DNA of 64,000 nt from Anaeromonas frigoriresistens (GCF_016820655.1 NZ_WSFT01000016.1:1-64000); one strand, 5' to 3'; positions 22,983 through 37,070 are shown, counted from the stretch's first letter. The notes: generated from the sequence alone by a model not told the origin. Numbers and translations: made by a program.

Positions 22983-24206
22983 TTATATTGTTTTATCTTT
23001 CATATTTTCTAATAATTTTAAAATTCCTTCTTCGATTTTATTGAAATCCTCTGACTTTGGAGCTCCTTCAAATTCAACCATTTCTACAAAATCCCATTTC
23101 ATTCTATTTCTCTCAATTATTTCTTTGAGTTCCCTTTCAGCTCCACCTGACCATCCATAAGATCCAAAGCGGAAAGCTACTTTATTGGTAATTTTTTTTC
23201 TTCCCAATTCCTCTATGGCTGCTGCTACAGGTGGAAACATTTTATATTCATAGGTAGGAGCAGCAATTATTACTCCAGCTGATTTAAAAACAGTGGCAAC
23301 CATTTCACTTTCACTTTCTAAAGGCATTTCAAGACTATTTACTTTTAACCCTTCTCTTTCCAAGACTGTTTCTGCAAAATCAACTGCTTTTTTAGTCATT
23401 CCATACATAGATCCCCATAATATAGTTATTTCTTTTTTCCCGGATCCTGATGAATATTTACAAAACCTTGAATAATCACTCATTATTTTTTGTGGGTTTT
23501 GTCTATATATAGGTCCATGACCCGGAGCTATAATATCTATATCCAATTCTTTAGATTTTTTTATTGCCTTTTTTACCATAGGTGCAAATGTGCCCATAAC
23601 ATTCGAAAAATACCTTATACCTTCATCTTCAAAAAATTCAATTTCCTCATCAGTCATCTCATCATCAAAATGATGCTCATCCATTTTCCCAAAGGCTCCA
23701 TACATATCGCAGGAGAATAGAGTTTTAGTGTCTGACTCATAAGTATACATAGTATCCGGCCAATGTACATTTGGAACTGGATGGAAACTTAATTTTTTTC
23801 CTTTACCTAAGTTTAAGGTATCTCCCTCTTTAACTACTCTTATATTTTCTTCATCCCCATAAAAAGAAGTTACTAATTTAGCGGCTTTATCTGTGCATAC
23901 AATAGTAAAATCATCATTGATTTTTTTAAAACTCTCAATCCATCCAGAATGATCTGGCTCCATATGGTTTACTATCAAATAATCTATTTCTTTAGGATCT
24001 ACATCAATTTCTCCAAGGATTTTATACAAAGTTTCTGGTACTCCATCCCAACCTATAACTCCATCTATAATAGCAGTTTTATCTCCCTTTACTATATAAG
24101 AATTTAATGTAACGCCATTAGCTATCTCCCATATTCCTTCAAAAAGCATATCTTCTACATTCATGGACAACATATGTATTCCATCTGCTATCTTTATTTT
24201 TTTCAT
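22983..24206 (-). CDS. fprA: A-type flavodiiron protein (oxygen/NO reductase)
   Basis: 407 aa. The metallo-beta-lactamase-like domain (1-250) carries the diiron ligands in NHMEPDHSGW (H-x-E-x-D-H), VHWPDTM, LFSCDMYGAFG and APGHGPIY. A flavodoxin domain follows (about 255-400) with TILWGSMYGMTKKA for FMN phosphate and GSYGWSGGAEREL. It reduces O2 to water (or NO to N2O) and protects oxygen-sensitive enzymes such as the PFOR encoded elsewhere here. There is no C-terminal rubredoxin. The ribosome site AAGGAGG precedes the ATG. It is monocistronic with its own terminator at 22911. The neighbour upstream, YaaA, is also an oxidative-stress gene. Confidence 0.93.
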   Translation of the reverse strand: MKKIKIADGIHMLSMNVEDMLFEGIWEIANGVTLNSYIVKGDKTAIIDGVIGWDGVPETLYKILGEIDVDPKEIDYLIVNHMEPDHSGWIESFKKINDDFTIVCTDKAAKLVTSFYGDEENIRVVKEGDTLNLGKGKKLSFHPVPNVHWPDTMYTYESDTKTLFSCDMYGAFGKMDEHHFDDEMTDEEIEFFEDEGIRYFSNVMGTFAPMVKKAIKKSKELDIDIIAPGHGPIYRQNPQKIMSDYSRFCKYSSGSGKKEITILWGSMYGMTKKAVDFAETVLEREGLKVNSLEMPLESESEMVATVFKSAGVIIAAPTYEYKMFPPVAAAIEELGRKKITNKVAFRFGSYGWSGGAERELKEIIERNRMKWDFVEMVEFEGAPKSEDFNKIEEGILKLLENMKDKTI

Positions 24207-24342
24207 AATTAAACCTCCTTATTTATAAATCAATATAATATTTACCCTTTTTCATTAAAATTAATTATATATGATTATATTTTTTAATTAAGTTCAAATA
24301 GGTATTTTATATAGTGAACCTAATCCAGTTTCTAACTTTGTG

Positions 24343-25092
24343 TTATTTCTCATTTTTCAAAAAAATGTATGTATTTTCATCTGATAGATGCTCCACAAAA
24401 TTATAATCTAGTCTATTAAAGCTTTTGATAACTTCTACATTTTCAATCTGTTTTTCTGCCATAAATCTTACCATTTCACCTCTTGCCATCTTTGCTAATG
24501 TACCCTTTTCAACTATCTTTTTTCCAATCAATTCACCAAAAACACAAGTAATAAATTGTATTTTTTTATCCACATATTTAGAAATACATTTGCTATACTC
24601 TTTAGATGCCAGATTTATAATGCACTGACTTTCCGAAATAAGTTGATCAGCTAATTTTTTATTCCAGAATTTATAGAGTGAGTTTATATCATCATCTCCC
24701 AGTTTTGCTTGCATTTCTAACCTATAAGGAACCACACCATCAAAAGGACGTAAGATACCATAAAACCCAGATAAAATACGCAAATGCATTTCAATATATT
24801 CAAATTCCTTGGTTGTAAACACTCCTGGGCCCATGTACTTATACTGAAGCCCCTCAAATGAAAGGAGGGCAGGAGTTAAGTTACTATATAAATCCATCTT
24901 ATGGATACGCTCATAATTTAGAGTAGCTATTTTATCACTACATTTCCATATAGATTTTAATTTTTCATAACTTAATCTTTTAAAATATGATAGCAAAACT
25001 TCTGTATCATCTATAAACTGAGGAAGTTGATTATAATCTAATGAATCTATATCTATTTTCATCTTCTTGGCAGGTGAAATAATAATTCTCAT
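24343..25092 (-). CDS. yaaA: YaaA (UPF0246) peroxide-stress protein
   Basis: 249 aa from the ATG at 25092, which has AAGGAGG five bases upstream; an earlier in-frame start at 25137 has none. Family signatures: MRIIISPAKKM at the start, FEGLQYKYMGPGVF, RILSGFYGILRPFDGVVPYRLEM, FWNKKLADQL, INLASKEYSKCI and CVFGELIGKKIVEKGT. In E. coli YaaA binds DNA and lowers free iron under peroxide stress; the same role is assumed here. It stands between the flavodiiron gene (137 bases away) and the QueG-like cluster. Confidence 0.9.
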   Translation of the reverse strand: MRIIISPAKKMKIDIDSLDYNQLPQFIDDTEVLLSYFKRLSYEKLKSIWKCSDKIATLNYERIHKMDLYSNLTPALLSFEGLQYKYMGPGVFTTKEFEYIEMHLRILSGFYGILRPFDGVVPYRLEMQAKLGDDDINSLYKFWNKKLADQLISESQCIINLASKEYSKCISKYVDKKIQFITCVFGELIGKKIVEKGTLAKMARGEMVRFMAEKQIENVEVIKSFNRLDYNFVEHLSDENTYIFLKNEK

Positions 25093-25236
25093 AATGACCT
25101 CCTTGTATAATAAATCTGTAGTCAAGCACAGGTTCATTAGAATTTATTATATCATATCCAAATTTTTTCTTACTAATTAAATATACCTTATCCACATCTA
25201 GTATCCATCATAAAGAACTCTCAAATAAGAAGTAAA

Positions 25237-25276
25237 AATAAGCCTACCAAGGTGATTTCACCCTAGTCGGCTTATT
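25237..25276 (-). terminator. Intrinsic terminator after the QueG-like operon
   Basis: Outer arms AATAAGCC/GGCTTATT and an inner GGTGA/TCACC stem form a long, slightly bulged hairpin, followed on the minus strand by TTTTTA. It ends the marR-QueG-like transcript. Confidence 0.8.
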
Positions 25277-25364
25277 CTGCTACTATTATTCAATTTCCCA
25301 TTCAATCTCTGTTACATCTAATAATATCACAATCAACCTCTCATAATAAGCTAAAGCTATAATA

Positions 25365-26282
25365 TTACTTTTTAGCATAGATTTTTTCAATTTTTTCATA
25401 CTTTGACTTTAAAAATGTACATTCTTTAATGCATACTGTGCACCCATATTGTTTTGAAAACGGACCAGAACATTTTTTATAATCTATATGCTGTTCACTT
25501 CCATCTTCAAAAACGATAGGCTTTTCATAAATTGCCTTTGCAGGACATTTTCTTACGCAATTGTTACATGAATCACAAAAGTTTTGTATCCAATCGTGAT
25601 TTAGTTGATGATTCAAAGGGAGATTTTCGATATCCGTAAGTATTGCAGCAAGACGTACACTTGGACCAAAATCCTGTGTAATTAAAAGCCCATTTTTACC
25701 AAAACCACCAAGCCCTGCATCCCTCGCCATAACTGAAAGATTTAGATTGCTACCAATCGCTGGAATTGGCTGTGCATTAAAACCTTTACTTCTAAGGAAG
25801 TCAGATATAAAATTTACTGCTCTTCCAAGTTCATAATAAGTTCTGAAAACTTCTTTAATAGTTCTTTTAGATGGCGCATGTTCTATCTCTGTTTTTTTCA
25901 TCTCCATTGTAAAGACTATAGCATTCTTAAATATAACAATTGACTCCCTAAACATATGACTTTCCTTTACTTCTGTGTATCCTATACCTGATATGCCAAG
26001 GGATCTTGCGAAAGCTTCCAGTTCTGTCAATACCTCCGCGGTTATAGTTTTGTTTCCAGTATACGGATTCTTTTCAATGGATTTGACAGTCTTATTCAAT
26101 TCTCGAAGTGAACCAATTAAATACTTTGCATGAGACGGCATTGTTTTAACTTTTGATAATAAGCTGCCGTACTTCACACTAATCTCTGGGACTATTAATC
26201 CTTTTTTAAAATGCGGTTCTCCATACCAAACTTTATCAATTGGTCTGATGTGTTTATATTCTCTAGGCATTGGGAATTTCAT
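25365..26282 (-). CDS. QueG-like 4Fe-4S double-cluster protein (305 aa)
   Basis: The N-terminal two thirds resemble the cobalamin-binding region of epoxyqueuosine reductase/reductive dehalogenase-like proteins (VMARDAGLGGFGKNGLLI near 190-205). The C-terminus is ferredoxin-like: CDSCNNCVRKCP (C-x2-C-x2-C-x3-CP, about residue 235) and GCTVCIKEC (second cluster). True QueG is a queuosine tRNA enzyme, but this protein is diverged and linked to a MarR regulator, so a different redox job is likely. ATG 26282 is chosen because GAGGAGG is 6 bases upstream; it starts one base after the marR stop. It is an intact paralogue of the broken gene at 26750. Confidence 0.75.
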   Translation of the reverse strand: MKFPMPREYKHIRPIDKVWYGEPHFKKGLIVPEISVKYGSLLSKVKTMPSHAKYLIGSLRELNKTVKSIEKNPYTGNKTITAEVLTELEAFARSLGISGIGYTEVKESHMFRESIVIFKNAIVFTMEMKKTEIEHAPSKRTIKEVFRTYYELGRAVNFISDFLRSKGFNAQPIPAIGSNLNLSVMARDAGLGGFGKNGLLITQDFGPSVRLAAILTDIENLPLNHQLNHDWIQNFCDSCNNCVRKCPAKAIYEKPIVFEDGSEQHIDYKKCSGPFSKQYGCTVCIKECTFLKSKYEKIEKIYAKK

Positions 26283-26283
26283 T

Positions 26284-26739
26284 CTAATCCTCCTCAATCT
26301 TCGAATCAATATTTGCTACTAGCGCCTCCGAGTTAAGATGAAGTAGTGACAAATACTCATAAAATACTTGTTTGTCTTCACCCTTAAACCCTTTAAAGAG
26401 TTCTTTCTCAGCATTGGTTTTTACATGAATTAAATCATCTACTATCATTTCGCCTTTTTCTGTTACATAACACAAGGTATTTCTTTTATCTTTTTCATCT
26501 GATACTCTCCTAATAAAACCATCACCTTCAAGAATTATAAGTGCTTTAGTAACACTAGCTTTTCCAACATTTTTAAGCCTTGCAAGCTCAAGTTGATTAA
26601 TTCCAGGACTGCTATAAATCAAAAGAAAATACTCGAATTGACCTTGCTTTATTCCATATTTATCGATTTTTGAACCGATATAATAATTTATATTTGAAGT
26701 AATTGTCCTAATCAATTTTCCGAAATTCTGTATTTCCAT
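26284..26739 (-). CDS. MarR-family transcriptional regulator
   Basis: 151 aa winged-helix protein: GIKQGQFEYFLLIYSSPGINQLELARL, then the recognition helix region NVGKASVTKALIILEGDGFIRRVSDEKDKRNTLCYVTEKG with the wing (DxRxx-like DEKDKRN). Dimeric repressors of this family answer to small aromatic or oxidising ligands. It lies between two QueG-like paralogues in one transcript. The likely target is the promoter at 27762-27790, which carries two ACTGGT-N-AACTAA copies. GAGGAA precedes the ATG. Confidence 0.9.
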   Translation of the reverse strand: MEIQNFGKLIRTITSNINYYIGSKIDKYGIKQGQFEYFLLIYSSPGINQLELARLKNVGKASVTKALIILEGDGFIRRVSDEKDKRNTLCYVTEKGEMIVDDLIHVKTNAEKELFKGFKGEDKQVFYEYLSLLHLNSEALVANIDSKIEED

Positions 26740-26749
26740 ATCAAATTCC

Positions 26750-27697
26750 TCACTTCTTTGTTTTTTTATTGGTTTTTAAGAATGCCTCTTTTATTTTTTC
26801 ATAATTACCGGTTGTAAATGGACATACCTTAATGCAAATACCACAACCGTAGTTTATAAACCCCTCACAACATTTTTCGTAATCAATACGGGTTGGATTA
26901 ATTCCATCCAATGCTACGGGTTCTTGTAGGATTGCACCAGATGGACATTTACGAATACACTTTCCACACTTCTTGCAGAATTCTCTTATCCATCTGATAT
27001 CCTCAGTATTACGATTAATAAATTCGTCCAGATTCTCAATATTTGTGTAGACAACTGATAATCTATGACAATGACCATGCTTTTTTGTTATGACCATACT
27101 GTGTCTACCTATAATAGCGATACCTGCCCACTCAGCTGCCATAGAATAATCTAACTGCCCATCCATAGAATGATTGGGACTCGCTCCAAATCCTTTCTTT
27201 TGTAGGAACTCTGCAACCTTGTTGGCAATATTCCCTGTCTGTCCATATACTTTGGCCACTTCTAGCTAACACTCTATACTTGGGGCTGTTCCAAATGCAG
27301 TTTTATCCATAGCTCATGAAAATACCAGAGCATATTTATGGGGAACCCCACATTCCTTGAATATTTTCTCAGGTGTAACTTCAAAAAAACCATATTCATC
27401 TACTTGAAGAGAATTTAGTAGTTGATCTAATTCTTCAAAGCTTACCCTTGACATATGTCTCTTTGTGGTTGAAGTATCTTCCTTTATCAGCTTCACTGTC
27501 TTATTTATTGAATATGGGAGCTTGTAAATATTTTTTATATTTTTCAATATATGAAATACATCATTCCTATTAAACTTTGGTTTGCGCCCTTCAACATACA
27601 ATCTTTTTGATGGAGATTTTTCTTTAGAAAATACACTTGCTTTTTCATTTAATTCAATAGTTTGTGGTTTGACCATCTTATTTAAACTTAAACCCAT
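26750..27697 (-). pseudogene. QueG-like 4Fe-4S protein gene broken by two in-frame stops
   Basis: One continuous frame from ATG 27697 is interrupted by TGA at 27316-27314 and TAG about 17 codons later. After these it continues as AKVYGQTGNIANKVAEF and on to the cluster motifs CKKCGKCIRKCP and GCGICIKVCPF, ending at 26750. The readthrough aligns without gaps to the intact paralogue at 25365: KYALVFS-stop-AM versus KNAIVFTMEM, and APSIEC-stop-LEVAKVY versus APSKRTIKEVFRTY. The stops fall at Met and Ile positions, not at conserved residues, so recoding is unlikely and recent inactivation is the simple reading. The downstream half has an internal start candidate (27259) but no clear ribosome site. 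Confidence 0.75.
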
Positions 27698-27734
27698 AGT
27701 TTTGCTCACTCCCTTCAAGTTAGTAATATCACAA

Positions 27735-27796
27735 TTAGTTCACCAGTATACCATTAGGTTTACTATACACTATTTTAGTTAACCAGTCAACTATTA
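27735..27796 (-). promoter_or_regulatory. Promoter with MarR-type operators for the QueG-like/marR operon
   Basis: On the minus strand TTGACT (27790-27785) and TATAGT (27767-27762) are 17 bases apart. The -35 lies in an imperfect palindrome AGTTGACTGGTTAACT. A second copy of the core, ACTGGTGAACTAAT, lies just downstream of the -10 (near 27749-27735). Two spaced copies flanking the promoter core suggest repression by the MarR product of the same operon. Confidence 0.65.
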
Positions 27797-27804
27797 TTTT
27801 AAGG

Positions 27805-27933
27805 TTAACAATTATAACTTATTTGAAATTCATGAATTATGTTTATGTTATTACAGAAAATTATGAGTAGCAAGGCTATTAGAAGCAAGAAAAATTTTGG
27901 AGTTAATTCACTTAACTTTTTCTCTAAATTCAT
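27805..27933 (-). CDS. Possible 42-aa membrane peptide
   Basis: ATG at 27933 opens a frame of 42 codons: a charged start MNLEKKLSELTPKF, a hydrophobic helix FLLLIALLLIIFC and a short tail, ending TAA 27807-27805. There is no clear ribosome site and it lies just upstream of the promoter at 27785, so this may be chance. Confidence 0.2.
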   Translation of the reverse strand: MNLEKKLSELTPKFFLLLIALLLIIFCNNINIIHEFQISYNC

Positions 27934-27980
27934 CTTTTTATGTGAGATTGTAAATTATGCGTGAAAGTGAGACCCCCATA

Positions 27981-28014
27981 AATAAAAACTTCCCCAAACA
28001 TACATCTGAGGAAG
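27981..28014 (-). terminator. Intrinsic terminator after the DUF6179-like gene
   Basis: CTTCCTCA pairs with TGGGGAAG (one G-U) on the minus strand and is followed by TTTTTATTTA. It is closely related to the element at 22571-22600, including the flanking CCCCATAAA. Confidence 0.75.
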
Positions 28015-28068
28015 CACATATTTTACTATTAAATTCACTTATAACCTATTATAAACCATTCCCAGATA

Positions 28069-29433
28069 TCAATCTCCTATAAGATGTTTTGCAATCTGGA
28101 GAATTAGTTCTTGTCTGTTAGTTGGAAGTTGCTTAATATAGTTTTCTAAGTATAATCGTACTACCTGTTCCGTATCTGATAAATCTACAGCTTGAATGTC
28201 CGACTCAAACGGGTGTCTTTTAATCATTGCTGCAATTTCAACATCTCCGAGAGTATTAAACAGAGAAATAAATTCCTCTTCTTCTAATTGTGCATCAAGT
28301 AATATATCTTCAAGATCATCAAAAGATTTTACTCTTTCCTTTATAAGTTCTAACTTATCAGATGAAAATCTACATCTAAGCAATTCTTCTATTAACCTTC
28401 TATATTCTTCATCATCCATTTTAACACTGGATTCAAAGTGGATTTTAGGTTCTAGATTTGGATTAATTGAGGTTATGAATACTTTACTGAGGGTATTTAA
28501 TTTTAGTGCATTTTCTATATTAGTTGTAATCTTCGATAAACTTTTTTCAATATATTTTTGGAGAGAAAGGTTTGTAATATTTAACTCTTCAAATATATCT
28601 TTAGTCGCCTTATGAATATTTAACATAAGTGTATGATTATCATATCTTAGTAATTTTTCAAATAAACGTTGAATATCTTCTCCCGTAATATTGAGTTCTC
28701 TAATGTTACGGTTAGCGAGAGAACATCCCAAAGCCGTTGTTAATAATTGTTCAAAAATATTAATCAATAATTCCGTGTACCCTTTATCATATCCATAAAG
28801 TAGATAATGAATGTTCTCTGCTGCAAAATTCATGCAAAATTCGTTCTCAAGGTATAAATTCTCAAGGTATTTTTGAATAAATTCTACTCCTGCCAAATCA
28901 TTAACAGGATTGCAAAGCTGATAGTCAATAGAAGCAGGAGAATCATGGGCCTCATACTCTAAGTTGTATGACTTAAAGAAAATCCCAATTCCATTTTCAC
29001 TAAGTGTCGAATTATAAGAATGATTTAGTGTATCTAGTTTATTCTTTTGCACCATATTATAGATACGCTTTGTTACTTGAAATCTAGTATTAACTAATTT
29101 TCTGCCTTTCTCATATAGATCAGAAATCCTTACTGTTTTTAGCTCTTTTACAGCATAGTCTGGATCTGGTAAAGACTTTAAGTATAGACCTATTGAATAA
29201 ATATTAGATTTCATAATGCTTTCAGCAGTCTCAACTCTTATAGAACTGCTTTCAGCCTTATTATATCTCTCACTTTTATATGATAAGAGACTAATACATT
29301 GTAGCTGAATATTTTCTAAATCAGACTCATTTAATAGTCCAGAGGTATATGCCTCTTGTAAAATATTATTAAAATAGAATTCATCACTCAAATTATGACT
29401 ATTAATGATATGTCGCTTTTCAATATTCTCCAT
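28069..29433 (-). CDS. Helical protein of unknown function, DUF6179-like (454 aa)
   Basis: The start is ATG 29433 (MENIEKRHIINSHNL) with GAGGAGG six bases upstream; an upstream frame extension to 29514 lies inside the preceding gene and is rejected. The protein is acidic, almost wholly helical by composition, without signal peptide, membrane helix or catalytic motif that I can name. The C-terminus is rich in Glu/Leu/Ile repeats (DLEDILLDAQLEEEEF). It overlaps the upstream DUF6323-like gene by 14 bases, which implies coupled translation and a shared complex. I recall DUF6179 and DUF6323 as clostridial neighbours; the assignment is from memory of sequence style and needs a profile search. Confidence 0.6.
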   Translation of the reverse strand: MENIEKRHIINSHNLSDEFYFNNILQEAYTSGLLNESDLENIQLQCISLLSYKSERYNKAESSSIRVETAESIMKSNIYSIGLYLKSLPDPDYAVKELKTVRISDLYEKGRKLVNTRFQVTKRIYNMVQKNKLDTLNHSYNSTLSENGIGIFFKSYNLEYEAHDSPASIDYQLCNPVNDLAGVEFIQKYLENLYLENEFCMNFAAENIHYLLYGYDKGYTELLINIFEQLLTTALGCSLANRNIRELNITGEDIQRLFEKLLRYDNHTLMLNIHKATKDIFEELNITNLSLQKYIEKSLSKITTNIENALKLNTLSKVFITSINPNLEPKIHFESSVKMDDEEYRRLIEELLRCRFSSDKLELIKERVKSFDDLEDILLDAQLEEEEFISLFNTLGDVEIAAMIKRHPFESDIQAVDLSDTEQVVRLYLENYIKQLPTNRQELILQIAKHLIGD

Positions 29434-29911
29434 CTGCATCCTCCTCTTCACATTCATTATCCTCTGAATAATCAGGAGCATATCCATATCGTAAATTACG
29501 AGCCATTTTATCAAGTTCTCGTCCTGATAACAATTCTAATGATCCTTGGCATTTGCCATCAAAGGAATTTTTCATAAACTTTATGAGTTCATCATCACTT
29601 ATTAAATCGAGAGTTTCATTTTTATAAAAATAAAAAATTTCAATTAACTCATGAAGTGTTTCTACATAGTTATGCATAGAAATATAAGGAGAATCACAAA
29701 ACTCCTTGATTATTTTATCAATTACGCCACCTCCAAATTCAATACGTCCATTATTTTTTAGTGAAAAAGTTCTTGTTTCAACTAATTCAATGGCATCTTG
29801 GTGAGATAAAGTTAACCCAAATCTAAAAGTATAATCATTACATTTTTCAATTTCATCAACTGCTTGTTTTTGTATCAAGGATGAAAATACATTCATAATC
29901 TCAAATGACAA
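29420..29911 (-). CDS. DUF6323-like protein (163 aa)
   Basis: The start is taken as TTG 29911-29909 because GGAGGTG lies six bases upstream; the frame is open further upstream but without a ribosome site. The most characteristic part is FGLTLSHQDAIELVETRTFSL, NGRIEFGGGVIDKIIKEF and CDSPYISMHNYVETLHEL (residues about 30-90), followed by DELIKFMKNSFDGKCQGSLE. It ends in an acidic tail. It is probably cytosolic and helical. It is the first gene of a two-gene unit with the DUF6179-like gene; function unknown. A consensus promoter on the opposite strand starts about 50 bases upstream. Confidence 0.6.
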   Translation of the reverse strand: MSFEIMNVFSSLIQKQAVDEIEKCNDYTFRFGLTLSHQDAIELVETRTFSLKNNGRIEFGGGVIDKIIKEFCDSPYISMHNYVETLHELIEIFYFYKNETLDLISDDELIKFMKNSFDGKCQGSLELLSGRELDKMARNLRYGYAPDYSEDNECEEEDADGEY

Positions 29912-29958
29912 TAGGATCACCTCCAAAAGAAAAACAAATATATTTTTCAAAATAACGC

Positions 29959-29987
29959 TTGACATTTGATTTGTAATATGCTATAAT
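29959..29987 (+). promoter_or_regulatory. Perfect-consensus SigA promoter on the plus strand
   Basis: TTGACA (29959-29964), 17-base spacer, TATAAT (29982-29987), pointing right. Both boxes are exact consensus. The only thing downstream before a hairpin at 30077-30110 is about 85 bases without an ORF. Confidence 0.7.
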
Positions 29988-29993
29988 TAAATT

Positions 29994-30112
29994 GATACTA
30001 TTTATTATAATTTGATTCGGCCATAAATTATATTATACCATTAAATTTTAATAAAAGCAATACTATAAAAACAAAAAGCCAACGTTTATATACTAATATA
30101 ATCGTTGGCTAT
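29994..30112 (+). ncRNA. Candidate small RNA between a consensus promoter and a hairpin
   Basis: Expected start about 7 bases after the TATAAT and end at the hairpin with arms AGCCAACG/CGTTGGCT. The interval is AU-rich and has no ATG-initiated frame. The hairpin has a weaker T-run on this strand (ATCTTTATATTT) than on the minus strand, so termination here is uncertain. It may instead be a leftover promoter from a lost gene. Confidence 0.3.
30077..30110 (-). terminator. Terminator after a recombinase remnant
   Basis: Arms AGCCAACG (30077-30084) and CGTTGGCT (30103-30110). On the minus strand it is followed by TTTTTGTTTTTA and lies 11 bases past the stop of the serine-recombinase remnant. Confidence 0.75.
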
Positions 30113-30120
30113 CTTTATAT

Positions 30121-30370
30121 TTATATTTCAACATCAATAACGACTTCAGACTTAAACCCTATAATTAGCTTATCATTAAAGACTGTTACTTTTTCAATAA
30201 GCCACCTTACCAGGTGCTCATCACATTCCTCCAGTTCATAGGACTGTTCATTCAAGAACTCTGTCATTTCAGCTATTCACTGCCTTCTTCCTTAATGTTC
30301 TGCATTTTCTATAATCAATTGATATATTCACATCAATTCTATCTCCTCAACCCTATAAATTCATCCACTC
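30121..30370 (-). pseudogene. Internally deleted large serine recombinase
   Basis: The 3' end reads EMTEFLNEQSYELEECDEH, then LVRWLIEKVTVFNDKLIIGF and KSEVVIDVEI-stop. This is the usual C-terminus of large serine recombinases (an LVR-x-LIEKV-x-V-x-x-x-K-x-x-x-x-FKSG-like end). Upstream at about 30335-30365 is a YRVEEIE motif that I take as the N-terminal start of such a gene. The whole catalytic middle is missing. It lies directly next to an rlmD 3'-tail copy at 30522. It has its own terminator. Confidence 0.6.
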
Positions 30371-30560
30371 TTTCAACTCAACCCTACCTATTTTTATGTT
30401 CAAATTTTGCCCCAAAATATACCCTCGATATGTTCCTGAGAACACATTTCGAGGGCTAAAGTCAAATGGAAAGAACTACTTTCATTTTATAAAACCCAGT
30501 ATCTATAAGGCTTTCAGAGCTTTACTTTCTCGTTATCAAAACCACCGTCTCCACGTGCGT
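30330..30560. repeat. Junction block, left copy (homologous to 35533-35740)
   Basis: Shared landmarks in the same order as the right copy: ATTCTATCTCC-CAACCCT (30336), CTCGATATGTTC (30424-30435), AAACCCAGTAT (30492-30502) and the rlmD 3' tail CCGTCT-CACGTG (30545). Spacings of 88, 68 and 53 bases compare with 79, 67 and 43 in the right copy. A hairpin CCCTCGATATGT/ACATTTCGAGGG lies at 30422-30455. Confidence 0.7.
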
Positions 30561-30590
30561 GGAGTAATCTTAAAAACATGTCAAATTGCC
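30522..30590 (-). pseudogene. Duplicated 3' end of rlmD
   Basis: Reading leftward, YSTHVETVVLITRK-stop matches the end of the intact RlmD (TVHVETVVLMSRV-stop). A shifted upstream frame gives FDMF, the counterpart of PVDMFPHT. Only about 20 codons remain. It is best read as an attachment-site copy left by an element that integrated at the rlmD 3' end 5.2 kb away. Confidence 0.7.
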
Positions 30591-30710
30591 CTCTTTTTTA
30601 TTCAATAATCGTTTCATTTGTAATTAATATTAAGAACTGTACTTTCTACCATATATATATCTAATTATCTGTTTATTCTATTTTAATTTGCCTGCCAGCA
30701 AGTATTTTCC

Positions 30711-31282
30711 CTATTGCAAAAAACAAACTTTAGTATTCTTGATCGAATTCCATAAATCTGGATTTTCATTTATCTCAAGATGTTCTTTCATTAGATCTTC
30801 TTCACTCAGGCATTTATTAAAATCTTCCATTTGATTGCGTTCTGCAAGCAAAATCACAACATAAATGGCAGTTAATCAAATCCAAGCTATATTAATGCTA
30901 GTATCAAAAATCGTGTCGATCAATTTCAGCTTTACAGTATTCATATCCTTTAGCTCTGAAGCCAAAACTGCTGTATATATCATCAACACAGGATCAATCA
31001 TTCCCCATGTCAATTCATCCACATTAATATTTCTTTTCAATTCCTTTGAATATAGAAATGGGTGAGTTGGTTTTGAATATCCACCTTTTCGTACATATTC
31101 CACCAATAAACCAATAAACCAATAAGTAAGGTAAAAATTCCTGTTGCAATAATCAAAATGCGATTTAATCCTGAATAATACCTAATAGCAAAAAAAATAG
31201 AGAAAAACCCAGTCAAAAATAAAATTATAACACTAAAAATCATTCCATACATCAATGGTATTTTCTTCATATATACTGACAC
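30711..31282 (-). pseudogene. Broken membrane-protein gene
   Basis: GTG 31282 with AGGAAG six bases upstream opens a frame with two hydrophobic helices (about residues 12-32 and 41-61). Near 31090-31106 the sense moves to another frame: VEYVRKGGYSKPTHPFLYSK and on to TIFDTSINIAWI. There an in-frame TGA interrupts it. The same frame then continues as LTAIYVVILLAERNQMEDF and SEEDLMKEHLEINENPDLW to TAG at 30711. One frameshift plus one nonsense codon reconcile all parts into a single protein of about 190 aa. I do not recognise the family. Confidence 0.5.
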
Positions 31283-31348
31283 TTCTTTCTTCCTAAACTT
31301 TTTTTCTACCTAGCATACTATTCATTCTACATGGATTTAATAATCATA

Positions 31349-31831
31349 TCACCATGTCAAATTTTTGTTCTGATCAAGCGTCAACAAGTTTCCACATGTG
31401 TCGTCTGCGTAATAGGAATACACAACATCCTTATTATTGCCATGTATTCCTTTAGTCTTTTTTACAGATACGTCCTCCTCTAATTCCATCCCTGCCTTGA
31501 ATACAAAAGTGACTGAATAAGGATTTACCTTACCACTTTCATCCGTTTTACCTATAATAACTTTATCAATTGAATTCTCGAAAACCTCACGATCAAATAC
31601 TTCTAATAATTCATTGTTGTCAAATGCTTTTCTAAAAGATTTAAGCTTATCTTTTAAAAGCTTTTCTTGCTCATGGGTTCCATCTAAAGAATTAGCTTCT
31701 TCTTTTAGTTCTTCCAATCTTTTCGTAGTCGCATGATATTTTTCTTCATAGGTCTCTTTATTGATGATGCCTTCAAGATTCATTTCTGCAAGCTTACTTA
31801 ATTTATAATTCGTATGCTCAATATCTGACAA
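31349..31831 (-). pseudogene. C-terminal fragment of a large serine recombinase
   Basis: The frame encodes EHTNYKLSKLAEMNLEGII, KETYEEKYHATTKRLEELKE (the coiled-coil segment of large serine recombinases) and later NELLEVFDREVFENSIDKVI and SVTFVFKAGMEL (the C-terminal beta segment). The N-terminal resolvase domain with the catalytic Ser and the recombinase domain are absent. Its 5' end runs into the last codons of the hydrolase gene (overlap 31818-31831), marking a deletion or insertion joint. It may still be translated from the TTG at 31831, but it cannot catalyse recombination. Confidence 0.7.
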
Positions 31832-32786
31832 AACGTGCTAGTGCATCTTCAAGCTGGAATCTACCAGGTTCCTCCACTGGGAAGTGACCGCATCCCTCCA
31901 GTACAACTATCTCTTTCTTGCTCTTTATCCGATCAAAGAATTTCATGGAAAGTTCGAGAGGTGTCCAGGGGTCAACGGCAGGGTGAGCTAGCAGAACAGG
32001 ACAAACATTAAAATCTTCCGGTTCAATGGCCGGTTTTGCATTCATCAAGCTCCTAAGGAATCCCATTGTTACTGTCGTTCCTCCTGCAAGTCTATCTTTA
32101 ATAAAAACTCTACTAACCTCAGGATCATTTGTAATAAGTTCCATTGGGGCAAGCCATTTCATTGGCAATCTGATTGGATCAATCAACGGTCCGAGGAGCT
32201 TTGCAAACAAGAATCCCCCTCCTCCTAAGAGTGAATTCCGCCCAACCTTTGCCATTGTTTTTATACTGCGGGTATCTGCTAATGTGGTTGCAATAAGACC
32301 ATCCACTTTCTTGTTTTCAGCCGCTGCCATATATGCCAACAATCCACCTATAGAAAGCCCCCACACTATAACAGGTAAACCATCTTTCTTTCTCTCTGCA
32401 TCAATTAGAGCTGATCCAATTTTACTCCAAAGGGCATAGGTAGGCTTTGTCTTTGAGGATCTTACGGTTAAACCGTATCCTGGAAAGTCCGGTGCTACCA
32501 CTTCACACCCTGCTCTCATTGCCATCCTGGCAAAGGCACCTAGGACTCTGCCATTTCCTCCTCCACCATGGAAAAGAAGCATTTTTGCCTTAGGATTATT
32601 TACAATATATCTATCGAGGTGAATTTGGTGTTCTTCAAAATCCCACCACTCCTCATTTGGTATATATTCTCCTTGTAGTCGAAGATCCTCCGGCAGATAT
32701 TTTTGGTACCAGCGCCACTCAGGACGATTTAGATAATATTGCTTTTCACCATTTCGGGGAATTCTTAATAATCCTCTAAAGTTCAT
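31818..32786 (-). CDS. Alpha/beta hydrolase (322 aa)
   Basis: Oxyanion motif FHGGGGNGR near residue 73, nucleophile elbow WGLSIGG near 143-149 (Ser), acid in HPAVDPWTP near 270 and His in EGCGHFPVEEPG near 302, all in the canonical order. Cytosolic esterase or lipase-like; substrate unknown. The ribosome site AAGGAGG is about ten bases before the ATG. It follows a TetR gene in the same direction (about 80 bases), a common regulator-enzyme pair. The last residues (FVRY) lie at the joint with the recombinase fragment, so the natural C-terminus may have been altered by a few residues. Confidence 0.85.
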   Translation of the reverse strand: MNFRGLLRIPRNGEKQYYLNRPEWRWYQKYLPEDLRLQGEYIPNEEWWDFEEHQIHLDRYIVNNPKAKMLLFHGGGGNGRVLGAFARMAMRAGCEVVAPDFPGYGLTVRSSKTKPTYALWSKIGSALIDAERKKDGLPVIVWGLSIGGLLAYMAAAENKKVDGLIATTLADTRSIKTMAKVGRNSLLGGGGFLFAKLLGPLIDPIRLPMKWLAPMELITNDPEVSRVFIKDRLAGGTTVTMGFLRSLMNAKPAIEPEDFNVCPVLLAHPAVDPWTPLELSMKFFDRIKSKKEIVVLEGCGHFPVEEPGRFQLEDALARFVRY

Positions 32787-32867
32787 AAATCTCAGACCTC
32801 CTTAAATATTATTATCCATATACACTATGGTCTTTATTAATCAAATCATTTAAAACCATATCTAGAG

Positions 32868-33446
32868 CTATTTCAGCAGTTTGACAACTAATGCTTTTAG
32901 CTCCTCTGAAGCTTCATCTATAGTAAAAGGGGTTTCTTCAATAATCGCCCGTTCCAAAACTTCATGAATCGTGATCACTAAAAAATAGGCCATAAAGTTT
33001 GAATTATCAATATATAATTCGCCTTTTAATCGTCCTTTTTCTATCCAAACAGTAAGCCATTCTATCCACTTGTTTACTGACTTACTTTCCATATTATGAA
33101 ATCCGATGAAAGTAAAAAATCTCACATGATGCATTAATTTTAATAGTGTATTGTGCTTTTTTAGAAAAAAAACGATGTAGGAAATAATTCTCTCAATATC
33201 CTCTTTTTCATAGCCTTCTACATCTAATTTAGCAAGATACTTATTTAAACCACTTAGTTTAGTGTCAATAAAATGCCAAACTAAAGCTTCCTTTGAATCA
33301 AAATATAAGTAAAAGGTTCCTTTTGCTATACCAGCACGTTGAACGATATCATTTATTGTAACTTTGCTAACACTTTTTTCCATAAACAATTGTTCCGACG
33401 CTTCGAGTATTTGATTTCTAGTTTCTTCTCCTTTTTTTGTAATCAT
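32868..33446 (-). CDS. TetR/AcrR-family transcriptional regulator
   Basis: 192 aa. The N-terminal helix-turn-helix is clear: RNQILEASEQLFMEKSVSKVTINDIVQRAGIAKGTFYLYFDSKEAL (residues 9-55). The C-terminal ligand-binding helices are unassigned. It precedes the alpha/beta hydrolase gene and probably controls it and itself. An 18-bp perfect palindrome overlaps its ribosome-site region, and TGACCAGT/TGGTCA repeats lie at about 33500-33570. It is part of the accessory block between rlmD-tail remnants. Confidence 0.9.
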   Translation of the reverse strand: MITKKGEETRNQILEASEQLFMEKSVSKVTINDIVQRAGIAKGTFYLYFDSKEALVWHFIDTKLSGLNKYLAKLDVEGYEKEDIERIISYIVFFLKKHNTLLKLMHHVRFFTFIGFHNMESKSVNKWIEWLTVWIEKGRLKGELYIDNSNFMAYFLVITIHEVLERAIIEETPFTIDEASEELKALVVKLLK

Positions 33447-33455
33447 AAAGCCCTC

Positions 33456-33473
33456 CTAATATGCGCATATTAG
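33456..33473. promoter_or_regulatory. 18-bp perfect palindrome at the tetR start
   Basis: CTAATATGCGCATATTAG lies 10 bases upstream of the tetR ATG and touches the GGAGGG ribosome site. A TetR dimer here would block its own translation-start region or promoter exit. TGACCAGT near 33500 and TGGTCA near 33555 and 33568 are further repeats in the same upstream region. Confidence 0.55.
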
Positions 33474-33606
33474 TTTCATTAGATTTGTTTTAACGTATAT
33501 GACCAGTCTTCATAAATTAATTATAACAGTACCTCTCATTGATTTATATGGTCACTTCTACTGATTTGGTCAGTTTTATATCTGTCTAATAAGATATTTA
33601 GTAAAT

Positions 33607-33650
33607 AAAAAAACCGAGCAATAATGAATTAGTTTTATCCATACACTCGG
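33607..33650 (-). terminator. Probable terminator
   Basis: CCGAG/CTCGG arms (33646-33650 and 33614-33618) followed on the minus strand by seven T. The loop is long (27 bases) and the stem short. It lies downstream of the anti-sigma gene and the rlmD-tail remnant. Confidence 0.45.
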
Positions 33651-33793
33651 CTTCCTTCTATTTAAAATACATATCTGCTTTTAAGCAATTCGCAAAGCGA
33701 TTCAAATTTCAAGCTTGCCAACAGGCACTTTATTTCGGAAATCTTCTCCATCTCTGATGAATTGAAAATCATCTGTAACCATTGTAAACACAG

Positions 33794-33993
33794 CTATTTC
33801 ATAGATTCCACCCTTTGTATTCCTACTACGCACTCAACATGGCTTGAGAGTACAGCATAAATGTCTTTCAATCTGTCGGTTCTCGAAAACATATCCACGG
33901 CATTTTTTGCACTATCGGTAGTCGGGAACATATCCACAGCCAATATCGCCAATAAAAATATATCTGCCCGTATAAATGATATCTTTTATTTGA
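33794..33993 (-). pseudogene. Third rlmD-like 3'-tail remnant, with a duplicated VDMF segment
   Basis: An open run of about 66 codons reads ADIFLLAILAVDMFPTT, then NAVDMFSRTDRLKDIY and SSHVECVVGIQRVESMK-stop. VDMFP and HVECVV match PVDMFPHTVHVETVV of intact RlmD. The VDMF block occurs twice (about 33892-33903 and 33924-33936), as if two tails had been joined. There is no start with a ribosome site. I read it as a junction left by another integration event. Confidence 0.5.
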
Positions 33994-34028
33994 GCCTTTA
34001 GTAAAATCTATCCCAAAAGGGATCATAC

Positions 34029-34934
34029 TTAACGACCCTCATATATTTTATTTTTATACTGTCTAATTAAGTTTACAGCCATTAGAAAAGCAATATATAG
34101 CGGAATCATAACTAACAATATTGCATAAAAATCCCGTGTCGCAGTATATGATGAAGTTGTAAATCCTTTAATAATCAAATGACCTAATAGGTAGGATACC
34201 GGTAAAAAGAAAACTTTCATTGTAAAATTAAGCACTTTTTTATTACGATACAATATAAGCATAATTAATCCACAAGTTGCAGCAAATACTATAGCAATAA
34301 GTGCGTAATAGGATAAAAATAGTCTTGGTAATGTAACAATCCCGCCGTTTGGATTTATATCTTTACCATACATCAATATATCTTCACTTCCATCTGTATG
34401 GTAATAATATACAGAAACAACATTTTCATCATTTGGATTTAAAATAGTATTATTTGTATTAGATTTTTTTATATTTCTATTCCATATGCTATTCCATGTA
34501 ATAATGTGATAGACATAACCAGTGTTGTCATCTGTAGGATATCTATTGATGTCATATCCATATACGGTATCCTCAAATTGAGCGAGCACCGACCCATTAC
34601 CAATCTCATTTATTGTTACACTTCTTTCGCTATATGGAATATACTCTGGAGCGGTCAAGAAAGCAATTGTTATAACAAAAATCATAATTGAAAACATCAT
34701 TGAGAATATTGCCGTCTGAATTTTCTTCTTGCGTAATGTTGATTTTATCTTTAGTAAAGGTGAGGTATTCCTATCTACTGGCATTTCATTAAAATTGCGC
34801 ATCTCATTAAGACAATTCTTGCATTCCTGACACTGCTCAATATGTTCTTCAACCATAATACACGAGTCATCACTAAGCATATTTTCTAAATATAGAGGCA
34901 ACACATCTTTAATAACATTACAAGTGACTTTCAT
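34029..34934 (-). CDS. Anti-sigma factor with zinc-finger head (301 aa)
   Basis: Residues 1-50 form a zf-HC2-type motif with H-x3-C-x2-C in EEHIEQCQECKNC, preceded by CNVIKDVLPLYLENML. A hydrophobic helix follows near 75-95, then an extracytoplasmic domain of about 120 residues and three or four helices at the C-terminal end (about 210-295). It should hold the ECF sigma factor at the membrane. The start ATG 34934 overlaps the sigma stop by one base (TGATG). Signal unknown. The multi-helix tail is longer than in simple one-helix anti-sigma factors. Confidence 0.82.
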   Translation of the reverse strand: MKVTCNVIKDVLPLYLENMLSDDSCIMVEEHIEQCQECKNCLNEMRNFNEMPVDRNTSPLLKIKSTLRKKKIQTAIFSMMFSIMIFVITIAFLTAPEYIPYSERSVTINEIGNGSVLAQFEDTVYGYDINRYPTDDNTGYVYHIITWNSIWNRNIKKSNTNNTILNPNDENVVSVYYYHTDGSEDILMYGKDINPNGGIVTLPRLFLSYYALIAIVFAATCGLIMLILYRNKKVLNFTMKVFFLPVSYLLGHLIIKGFTTSSYTATRDFYAILLVMIPLYIAFLMAVNLIRQYKNKIYEGR

Positions 34935-35416
34935 CAATAATCCCTCATTTCTTCTCTAATCTTATTTCTAGCTCGATGAAAAGTGACACAAGCCCAATTA
35001 TCTGTTTTACCAAACAAACTGCCAATCTGCCTAAAGCTCAGTTCTCCAAAAACTCTTAGAGAAAACACTTCCTTATATGGCTCAGATAAGTTATGGAGAA
35101 TTTCATGAGTTTTCATCGACTCTTCAGATGAAATTACCGATCTTTCTATATCAAAATCATCTTTCTTTTCAGGCACTGAGTCTAGCTCTATCAAAGTCTT
35201 ATGTTTTCTTATATATGAATAATATGAGTTTTTGGCTATTTGAAATAACCACACCTTGATATCACAATTTCCTTTAAAGCTTTCAATGGACTTTATCGCT
35301 TTTATAAATGTTTCAGATGTCAAATCTTCTGCTATATGTTTATCTTTTGATAGACTATATATGAAGAAGTAAACATCCTTAAAATAGTTATTATAAATCT
35401 CCTCAAGCTCTGTCAC
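34934..35416 (-). CDS. ECF-type RNA polymerase sigma factor
   Basis: 160 aa. Region 2 is seen in YFKDVYFFIYSLSKDKHIAEDLTSETFIKAI (residues 11-41) with VWLFQIAKNSYYSYIRKHK. Region 4 is in LSEPYKEVFSLRVFGELSFRQIGSLFGKTDNWACVTFHRARNKIRE (residues about 108-155). The start is GTG 35416 with AGGAGGTG five bases upstream. It is cotranscribed with its anti-sigma gene. The pair lies between the rlmD terminator and a tail remnant, so it looks like cargo of the accessory island. Confidence 0.9.
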   Translation of the reverse strand: MTELEEIYNNYFKDVYFFIYSLSKDKHIAEDLTSETFIKAIKSIESFKGNCDIKVWLFQIAKNSYYSYIRKHKTLIELDSVPEKKDDFDIERSVISSEESMKTHEILHNLSEPYKEVFSLRVFGELSFRQIGSLFGKTDNWACVTFHRARNKIREEMRDY

Positions 35417-35476
35417 TTTTTCACCTCCTATCTATAAGACGCACGGGATTTAATAATCTTACAATAAATTATAAAA

Positions 35477-35508
35477 AAATCTCAAAGTTTAAGTAATCCT
35501 TGAGATTT
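35477..35508 (-). terminator. Intrinsic terminator downstream of rlmD
   Basis: Arms AAATCTCAA/TTGAGATTT, followed on the minus strand by TTTTATAATTT. It lies about 200 bases past the rlmD stop, beyond the junction block. Confidence 0.75.
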
Positions 35509-35532
35509 AAAAATATTTTAGAGATAAACACT

Positions 35533-35740
35533 TACATCTATTCTATCTCCACAACCCTAAGGATGTTATCTGTTCTGTCCACTCAAACCTACTTCCCTTT
35601 TTAATTCAATTTCTATCACTCGATATGTTCCCCCAAACGTAAAAACTTACTTTCGGTCGAGTAAACAAGATAAATGTACTCATTCAAACCCAGTATAATC
35701 ATGGGTTACACTCTCGACATCAATACTACCGTCTCGACGT
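35533..35740. repeat. Junction block, right copy at the rlmD 3' end
   Basis: Contains ATTCTATCTCCACAACCCT (35540), CTCGATATGTTC (35619-35630), AAACCCAGTAT (35686-35696) and the true rlmD 3' end. Reading leftward after rlmD, a short frame MDRTDNILRVVEIE-stop resembles the first residues of clostridial large serine recombinases. It suggests that an integrase gene once followed rlmD directly. Confidence 0.65.
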
Positions 35741-37070
35741 GAACTGTATGTGGAAACATATCTACTGGTTGTATTTCTAATGTTTTGTATCCATTTTCAT
35801 TTAAGTATTTTAGATCTCTTGCTAATGTAGCTGGATTACAGGATACGTATACAACTTTTTTAGGATTCATTTCTATTATTGTATCTAGTACTTTTTGCTC
35901 ACAGCCTTTTCTTGGCGGATCTACAACTACAACATCTGCCCTTATACCTTGTTTATACAGCTTAGGAAATACTTCTTCTGCTTTTCCTGTAAAAAACTCT
36001 GCGTTTGTTATTTTATTTATTTTTGCATTTTTCTTAGCATCTTCTATAGCTAGTTTAACTACCTCTATCCCGTATACCTTTTTAGCCTTTTTAGCTAAAA
36101 ATAAAGATATACTTCCTATTCCACAGTAGAGATCAAATACTGTCTCATCCCCTTGTAAATCTGCATACTCTAGAGCTTTATTATATAAAACTTCTGTCTG
36201 TATAGGGTTGACTTGAAAAAAGGATAATGGAGATATATTAAATTTTATATCATCAATATAATCCACTATTTTATCTTCTCCATATAAATTTATAGTTTTA
36301 TGTCCTAATATAACATTATTTCTTCTAGTATTAATATTCTGAACTATACTTTTTACTCCCTCAATATTTGAAGTTAGTTCGGTAATTAACTCTTCTTTAT
36401 ATGGGAGCTTTTCTCCATTTGTTATTAGTACTATCATCAAATCCCCTGTTCTAAAGGATGTTTTAGTTAAAATATGTCTTATTATTCCTTTTTCCTTTTT
36501 TTCATCATAAGCTTTTACATTGTATTTCTTCATAAAGCTTCTTACTACTTTTATTATTTTATCTGTTATTGAGTGTTGTATTATACAACTATTAGTATCT
36601 ACAATATCATGGGTCCCTCTTCTATAGAATCCTATTTTAACGAAGTCTTCTCCAGGAGATAGAGGAAATTGAGCTTTATTTCTATATCCAAAAGGATCTT
36701 TCATTCCTAAAGTATCATGAATCTTTATATCCTCCATTCCTCCGATTCTTTTCATATCATTTATAACTCTTTCTTTTTTTATCTTTAACTGTTTATCATA
36801 ATCTATCTTTTGAATTTGACAACCTCCACACTCATCTACTACATGACAAGGAGCATCTATTCTCCATTCTGAAGGACTACTAATATTTACAAATTCTCCA
36901 ATACCATAATTCTTTTTTACTGTATGTATTTTAAGATTTCCTTTATCTCCAGGAATGCCATCATCGATAAAAATTGCAAATCCATCTATTTTAGCTACAC
37001 CTTGTCCTCGATGATTTAAATCTATTACTTCTGCTTCATATATATCTCCTTCTATTACTGGGGGTTTCAT
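35706..37070 (-). CDS. rlmD: 23S rRNA (uracil-C5)-methyltransferase RlmD/RumA
   Basis: 454 aa. TRAM RNA-binding domain at residues 1-60 (IDLNHRGQGVAKIDGFAIFI). An Fe-S cluster set follows: CHVVDECGGCQ plus a later Cys. SAM-binding motifs are VFDLYCGIGSISLFLAKKAKKVYGIE (about 310-335) and VVVDPPRKGCE, and the nucleophile is in VSCNPATLARDL. The C-terminal tail is PVDMFPHTVHVETVVLMSRV. It methylates U in 23S rRNA (or U54-type tRNA sites in some relatives). The start is ATG with AAAGGAGAG. Its 3' end is the apparent integration target for the elements between 30 and 35.7 kb. Confidence 0.94.
   Translation of the reverse strand: MKPPVIEGDIYEAEVIDLNHRGQGVAKIDGFAIFIDDGIPGDKGNLKIHTVKKNYGIGEFVNISSPSEWRIDAPCHVVDECGGCQIQKIDYDKQLKIKKERVINDMKRIGGMEDIKIHDTLGMKDPFGYRNKAQFPLSPGEDFVKIGFYRRGTHDIVDTNSCIIQHSITDKIIKVVRSFMKKYNVKAYDEKKEKGIIRHILTKTSFRTGDLMIVLITNGEKLPYKEELITELTSNIEGVKSIVQNINTRRNNVILGHKTINLYGEDKIVDYIDDIKFNISPLSFFQVNPIQTEVLYNKALEYADLQGDETVFDLYCGIGSISLFLAKKAKKVYGIEVVKLAIEDAKKNAKINKITNAEFFTGKAEEVFPKLYKQGIRADVVVVDPPRKGCEQKVLDTIIEMNPKKVVYVSCNPATLARDLKYLNENGYKTLEIQPVDMFPHTVHVETVVLMSRV

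Follow-up and report, generated by a model that had tools for sequence, protein, structure and literature searches.

Organization of the region behind rlmD

The window analysed here, a stretch of 64,000 nucleotides, carries on its minus strand the gene rlmD, followed in the reading direction of that gene by cargo genes, remnants of large serine recombinases (LSRs) and further rlmD-like tails. Seen from rlmD outward, the features are as follows.

35706..37070, minus strand: rlmD (23S rRNA uracil-5-methyltransferase, RumA family), the anchor gene; Pfam PF05958 and TRAM
35740..35741, minus strand: junction J0 at the His codon of HVE, whose CA is the inferred crossover dinucleotide; sequence
35533..35741, minus strand: left end of unit 1, which is block B; alignment, and the end type recurs in the order
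34934..35416, minus strand: unit 1 cargo, ECF sigma factor, SigM-like; PF04542/PF08281
34029..34937, minus strand: unit 1 cargo, zf-HC2 membrane protein, probable anti-sigma factor; PF13490
33833..33946, minus strand: conserved right end of unit 1; HMM from other genomes only (E=3e-26) and alignment
33840..33841, minus strand: junction J1; right-end HMM and tail PWM
33794..33841, minus strand: displaced rlmD tail HVECVVGIQRVESMK-stop after J1; translation, compare HIECVVGIQKT-stop of G061
32868..33446, minus strand: unit 2 cargo, TetR-family regulator; PF00440
31818..32786, minus strand: unit 2 cargo, alpha/beta hydrolase; PF12146/PF12697
31349..31831, minus strand: LSR, C-terminal 160 aa, lacking the catalytic domain; identity to LSRs
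31397..31398, minus strand: junction J2 with decayed tail ACACATGTGGAAACTTGTTGACGC; sequence only
30876..31282, minus strand: unit 3, broken gene with overlapping frames, no family; translation and Pfam
30556..30557, minus strand: junction J3; tail PWM
30522..30557, minus strand: displaced rlmD tail HVETVVLITRK-stop; translation, PWM score 37.3
30330..30557, minus strand: left end of unit 4, which is block A; alignment and end-type model
30124..30276, minus strand: C-terminal scrap (51 aa) of a second LSR, end of the recognisable stack; translation

Four junctions (35740, 33840, 31397, which is decayed, and 30556) fall at the conserved His codon of rlmD, and each is followed by an rlmD-like tail. 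The present end of rlmD is itself supplied by a unit, as the codons past the His at 35741 (VETVVLMSRV-stop) come from the adjoining one. The crossover was set at the CA of the His codon using six near-identical cassette copies and an empty site; an alternative placement at the GA of GTNGA was dropped on the same comparison. A preliminary description of this DNA had recognized two sites from the two blocks, and these are present, but the number of junctions is four rather than two.

The two blocks and their landmarks

The alignment of 30330-30560 with 35533-35740 is far above chance, and the two blocks of about 200 bases that had been paired by their ordered landmarks, including the rlmD tail, are thus real. 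The global alignment score of 30330-30575 against 35533-35760 was 188.5, compared to a mean of 86.3 (sd 9.3) and a maximum of 121 in 1000 first-order Markov shuffles of one block, and to a mean of 85.5 and a maximum of 121.5 at random places of the window. Both blocks hold ACATCWATTCTATCTCCWCAACCCTA (30330-30355 and 35534-35559, 92%), CTCAAMCCTAC, CTCGATATGTTCC, AAACCCAG and the rlmD tail ACCGTCTCSACGTG in identical order and with approximately the same spacing. Block B starts at about 35741 and, read in the direction of rlmD, begins at the 3' end of rlmD itself; it contains the new rlmD tail, a GGAACATATC motif and two tandem GGGTTGAGNNGACAG..GAT repeats. Block A starts at about 30557 and begins with a detached 12-codon tail (HVETVVLITRK-stop, 30557-30522).

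The possibility that the shared landmarks belong to a general repeat had been raised beforehand. A third clear copy was not present in the genome of the window, where the next-best matches were at chance level, and the block sequence is therefore not a repeat spread through this genome. An Rfam scan gave no match above chance and the blocks showed no conserved RNA fold; the hairpin fold z values were 0.0 for the right end of unit 1, 0.0 for block B and -4.2 for block A (mononucleotide shuffles, RNA parameters).

Unit 1 carries no recombinase

Unit 1 (33842-35741) is a compact element of 1.9 kb with both ends kept, arranged as left end B, ECF sigma factor, zf-HC2 membrane protein and a right end of ~105 bp. 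The sigma factor scored above the cut-off of TIGR02937 and below that of TIGR02950. No recombinase was found in a Pfam scan of the ORFs of unit 1, no IntI tyrosine recombinase among the island ORFs in the same kind of scan, and no relaxase, conjugation or mobilisation family among the ORFs scanned in 28069-37070.

The well-preserved right end at 33833-33946 had been overlooked in the preliminary inventory. A right-end HMM trained without the window (it was built from G018 and G038 only) matched 33833-33938 with E=3e-26 and stopped at the junction. This end contains two GATATGTTCCCG..ACCGAYAG-type repeats and GACATTYATKCTGTMCTCTCAAGC, which reaches the junction; it also carries GACATTTATGCTGTACTCTCAAGC and terminates at CATGTTGAG, where the displaced tail starts.

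The sigma/zf-HC2 gene pair also occurs elsewhere in the order with 67-87% identity. At seven loci checked in seven other genomes of the order, the match was confined to the two genes, with no cassette end found within 1.5 kb, as would be expected of captured cargo; unit 1 itself was thus not seen in other genomes.

Recombinase remnants in units 2 and 4

The recombinase remnants reported earlier proved genuine. The fragment at 31349-31831 corresponds to the last 160 aa of an LSR, with 68% identity to G015 and 34-46% to full-length LSRs, and 31 of the 150 genomes searched in the order hold relatives, mostly as frames of 560-640 aa. The frame of the fragment passes through J2, which lies at the point of the LSR frame where G009 and G008 have their intact junctions. 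As its tail has decayed, J2 is a probable junction placed by this position. The scrap at 30124-30276 is unrelated to the first LSR and has a similar C-terminus in G066 and a 46% match in G144.

In G056, G054, G116 and G009, rlmD is separated from a displaced tail by an LSR element of ~16 to 64 kb, and G008 retains a 3.5-kb scar at the same place. The LSR frame crosses the junction, reading …HTCGECG in one frame and …THVESVV in the other. This arrangement is the one reported for the rumA ICEs of streptococci, in which rumA and the integrase gene trade 3' ends upon integration (PMC4701971). As judged by position and frame, unit 2 likewise ends in a truncated LSR whose frame runs across the junction, as in rumA-targeting ICEs.

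Distribution of the left end

We searched the order with a left-end model (~210 bp) made from the two window copies and one copy of G009. The end type was present in 72 of 249 genomes, with up to four copies per genome, and the inspected copies start with an rlmD-type tail. Some lie directly behind an intact rlmD (G018, G052, which has two rlmD genes, G061, G091 and G123), others behind the 3' end of an LSR gene (G009, G056, G066, G083 and G178), and the remaining ones behind a third kind of sequence. Because its copies follow three different kinds of sequence, the block is the left end of rlmD-targeting mobile units and not native rlmD flank. The preliminary description had suggested looking for intact elements at rlmD with the same tail; the landmarks of the blocks were seen after the LSR junction of G009, which belongs to another family, and directly after intact rlmD in further families.

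The congeners, which would have been the natural island-free comparison, were not empty controls. In G001, rlmD ends in HVETIVLLTR-stop and is followed by unrelated DNA, the contig ending 23 bp after the gene, and in the other two of the three (G002 and G003) the site is filled by a tyrosine-integrase prophage. An empty site was found instead in G079.

Distribution of the right end

The right-end model had hits in 68 of the 249 genomes searched in the order and, at the level of the class, in 54 of 391 genomes, the latter representing 44 of 223 genera (the class was taken as Clostridia from gene content). A displaced in-frame tail of the HVExVxLMSR type with a stop abuts the right end in 44 of 45 loci, the remaining one lying at a contig end; the model includes just the first nine bases of the rlmD-type tail. 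With two LSRs and the prophage tyrosine integrase as queries, no ORF match to an LSR or prophage-type integrase was found in the 1.5 kb upstream of the right ends at the examined loci. LSRs and right ends co-occur in 15 of 150 genomes (hypergeometric p=0.007), an association confounded by phylogeny.

The gene nearest to the right end is almost always codirectional with rlmD. The tail PWM gave ~50 junctions in 25 rlmD-region sequences, and with a single exception these lay on the rlmD strand; this count is partly circular because the training set of the PWM included some of the junctions later found, whereas the right-end evidence is not circular. A scan of the genome contigs for rlmD gave 8 loci. 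A paralogue of rlmD on another contig of the host anchors a second stack that holds two more right ends. Codirectional arrays of recombinase-less cassettes at a fixed anchor are represented by unit 1 and by the stacks in G038, G066 and G000 C12.

Recombinase-less units move between sites

Six genomes of a single family carry a 3.16-kb unit with 99.5-99.9% identity among the copies. Its cargo comprises Erm(A) (NCBIfam 510 bits, cut-off 475), an APH(9)-like fragment, a cytidine deaminase and an MBL-fold hydrolase. The homology starts at the junction, and the position in the stack differs among the six genomes: the left neighbor is an rlmD-family gene in two (different genes), an LSR pair in one, and another unit or right end in the others. 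The G144 copy is interrupted by ~0.8 kb of extra DNA.

The DNA beyond this unit in G083 corresponds to the DNA directly behind the orthologous rlmD junction in G079, matching at 90.6% over 1536 bp from base 1 onward; G079 thus provides the empty site. Among 14 genomes of the G083 genus, the tail changes at the same codon in all 13 intact rlmD orthologues. Further exact unit boundaries were found between G018 and G048 (94%) and between G083 and G237 (95% over 6.3 kb). Judged from these genome comparisons, recombinase-less units do move as discrete cassettes in other genomes.

Model of serial insertion and competing explanations

We conclude, with a probability of about 0.8, that the region consists of mobile units inserted serially at one site of the rlmD 3' end, the CA of the HVE His codon. 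Most small units of this kind have no recombinase gene of their own. The stacking proposed in the preliminary description holds, since every one of the four junctions carries an rlmD-like tail and rlmD now ends in codons brought by a unit. Repeated site-specific entry, restoration of the gene end, stacked tails and LSR remnants are all retained from that scar model; decay as the whole story is not, given that unit 1 is recombinase-less with both conserved ends kept and belongs to a widespread class of such units. The site, the orientation, the replacement of the tail and the unit boundaries are established at the level of the nucleotide sequence.

As read from the sequence, each entry splits rlmD at the His codon, with the left end of the unit giving a new in-frame tail and stop and the old tail being displaced to the far side of the entering unit. 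The unit would circularise, and its right end joined to its left end would form an attP-like site; the predicted circle has GACATTTATGCTGTACTCTCAAGC-CA joined to CGTCGAGACGG. A candidate LSR acting in trans, from resident ICEs, IMEs or prophages using the same site, would then integrate the circle into rlmD (attB), so that the newest units would lie next to rlmD and the older ones further off. LSR elements and right-end units have unlike sequences on the right-end side of the junction, and one LSR may therefore not serve both.

On a wider scale, we give about even odds to an integron-like cassette system in Clostridia, and through them in streptococci and enterococci, which would be anchored at rlmD/rumA, have dedicated conserved ends, use LSRs in trans, gather resistance and detoxification genes, and seed the lsa(E)-lnu(B) and apmA clusters on Enterococcus plasmids. 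The strongest competitor, still unlikely, is ordinary accretion and decay, in which LSR ICEs or IMEs in tandem at rlmD lost their recombinase and transfer genes and became CIME-like remnants with no separate cassette system. The LSR remnants in units 2 and 4, the 16-64 kb LSR elements at rlmD in G054, G056, G116 and G009, and the accretion and CIMEs described in streptococci all fit such a history. However, the ~105-bp right end is common to dozens of genera and to unrelated cargo with no LSR matched beside it, and independent deletions would not produce the same end. One unit, moreover, sits in different contexts in six genomes at an identity of at least 99.5%.

Shuffling of cargo by homologous recombination between short tails and left ends, perhaps via transformation and without a site-specific recombinase, seems improbable. 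These sequences are repeated and could recombine, and some copies are more than 80% identical, but the tails are short and often different while the junction codon stays constant between genera, and the comparison of G083 with G079 requires no homology past a few crossover bases. Least credible by far is a shared block that is simply native DNA flanking the rlmD 3' end, or else a dispersed repeat, with the second copy a simple duplication. The block does stand behind intact rlmD in several families; the congeners G001-G003, however, carry other DNA after rlmD, which ruled out the native flank, the block is also found behind LSR genes and right ends far from rlmD, and the genome of the window has no third clear copy.

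Relation to known systems

That RumA/rlmD 3' ends are targets of some integrative elements, as the preliminary description stated, is published for streptococcal ICEs and IMEs, which have a single serine integrase in rumA whose 3' end spans att, with integration changing frames (PMC4701971; PMC5357655). The window shares with them the target gene end and the tail exchange (four junctions, one decayed), and the LSR of unit 2 fits in position and frame, although it is only a 160-aa C-terminal fragment. Unit 1 differs in having no integrase, relaxase or conjugation gene and in a right end that is a dedicated conserved sequence.

The CIMEs and microCIMEs of Streptococcus salivarius are recombinase-less, ~1-13 kb long, att-flanked and stacked at a gene 3' end (PMC7563491). 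Unit 1 is likewise att-flanked, free of recombination and conjugation genes and in tandem at a shared site. The S. salivarius composites lie at rpmG, rpsI, fda and rplL (PMC7563491), as opposed to rlmD here, and the right end described here is common to unrelated cargoes across the whole class and on plasmids. In Streptococcus suis, the rum 3' end is a hotspot with ICE_prophage tandems, described as composite ICE/prophage in the portion of that report accessible to us, which mentions no cassette ends (PMC5053989). The hotspot is the same, and S. suis records hold the right end between resistance genes.

Integron cassette arrays also have a fixed chromosomal anchor and codirectional recombinase-less cargo, often resistance or detoxification genes, and entry next to the anchor is a further likeness that we infer here. 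However, no IntI or attC was found here, insertion replaces the tail of a coding gene, and, unlike attC hairpins, the ends show no consistent folding above chance. In summary, the literature already covers the targeting of rumA by LSRs, the exchange of 3' ends, tandem accretion and CIMEs. What appears to be new is recombinase-less rlmD units with a common conserved right end at this scale, of which we found no description in the open-access literature.

The right end in plasmids, phages and resistance clusters

The right end occurs on 129 plasmid records, 121 of them from Enterococcus; the other hosts are Listeria, Staphylococcus, Lysinibacillus and two Bacteroidota. It is also found in eight streptococcal phage records, several of which are named '_rum'. 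On the inspected plasmids, lsa(E)-lnu(B), apmA or erm(G) precedes it and rlmD-type tails come after it, with no rlmD annotated. Three different tails follow the lsa(E)-lnu(B) unit, in Enterococcus faecium, in E. hirae and in the Listeria/Staphylococcus records, respectively. In S. suis records, the order behind rum is either erm(B)-vat-lnu(D), the right end and ANT(6), or mef(A), ANT(6)-ANT(9), the right end and lsa(E)-lnu(B). The right ends in two records (L265 and L266) have no clear tail.

If the cassette reading is true, the ~105-bp end is a mark by which resistance clusters, lsa(E)-lnu(B) and apmA among them, can be traced to their origin. The gene rlmD, known mainly as an ICE and prophage site in streptococci, would then be a class-wide anchor for cassette capture, and the assembly of resistance arrays without integrons in Gram-positive bacteria would become directly testable.

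In the host (G000), the region 76000-95500 of contig C12 (L214) holds a second rlmD-family gene with 32% identity, which likewise anchors a stack of successively inserted mobile units. Five junctions with tails and two conserved right ends were observed behind this gene, and the cargo includes ABC transporters and serine-hydrolase/beta-lactamase-like genes. In the congener G001, the rlmD-family genes on C43 and C6 are both located at contig ends, with 23 and 281 bp, respectively, from stop codon to end, as expected if the assembly broke at repeated unit ends.

Left of the stack in the window (22983-29965) lie the FprA and YaaA genes, which in the congeners G002 and G003 are not on the rlmD contig, and a DUF6179-DUF6323 pair that is located elsewhere in G001. 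These gene locations point to a possible rearrangement border at the stack or close to it. A ferredoxin-type 4Fe-4S protein gene in the same region is split into two frame-shifted halves (26750-27718), and its intact paralogue adjoins it (25365-26309).

In three compared genomes (G238, G239 and G240; L281, L277 and L278), the rlmD frames extend well beyond the junction (HVETVALLSKLNxxHxxIEIE...), and the C-terminal extension resembles large serine recombinase (LSR)- or ICE-encoded C-termini. In the G018 island (L164-L166), about 2.3-59 kb after rlmD, an insertion of 57 kb that carries an LSR pair interrupts a type I restriction-modification region borne on a cassette, an arrangement that recalls Tn1806-like elements in hsdM.

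In G002 and G003 (L018, L020), a prophage occupies the rlmD 3' end, with its tyrosine integrase adjoining rlmD, and in G002 the displaced tail HVETVCLIEKK* was found 37.7 kb from rlmD. Thus, this site also serves as a target for a second type of recombinase.
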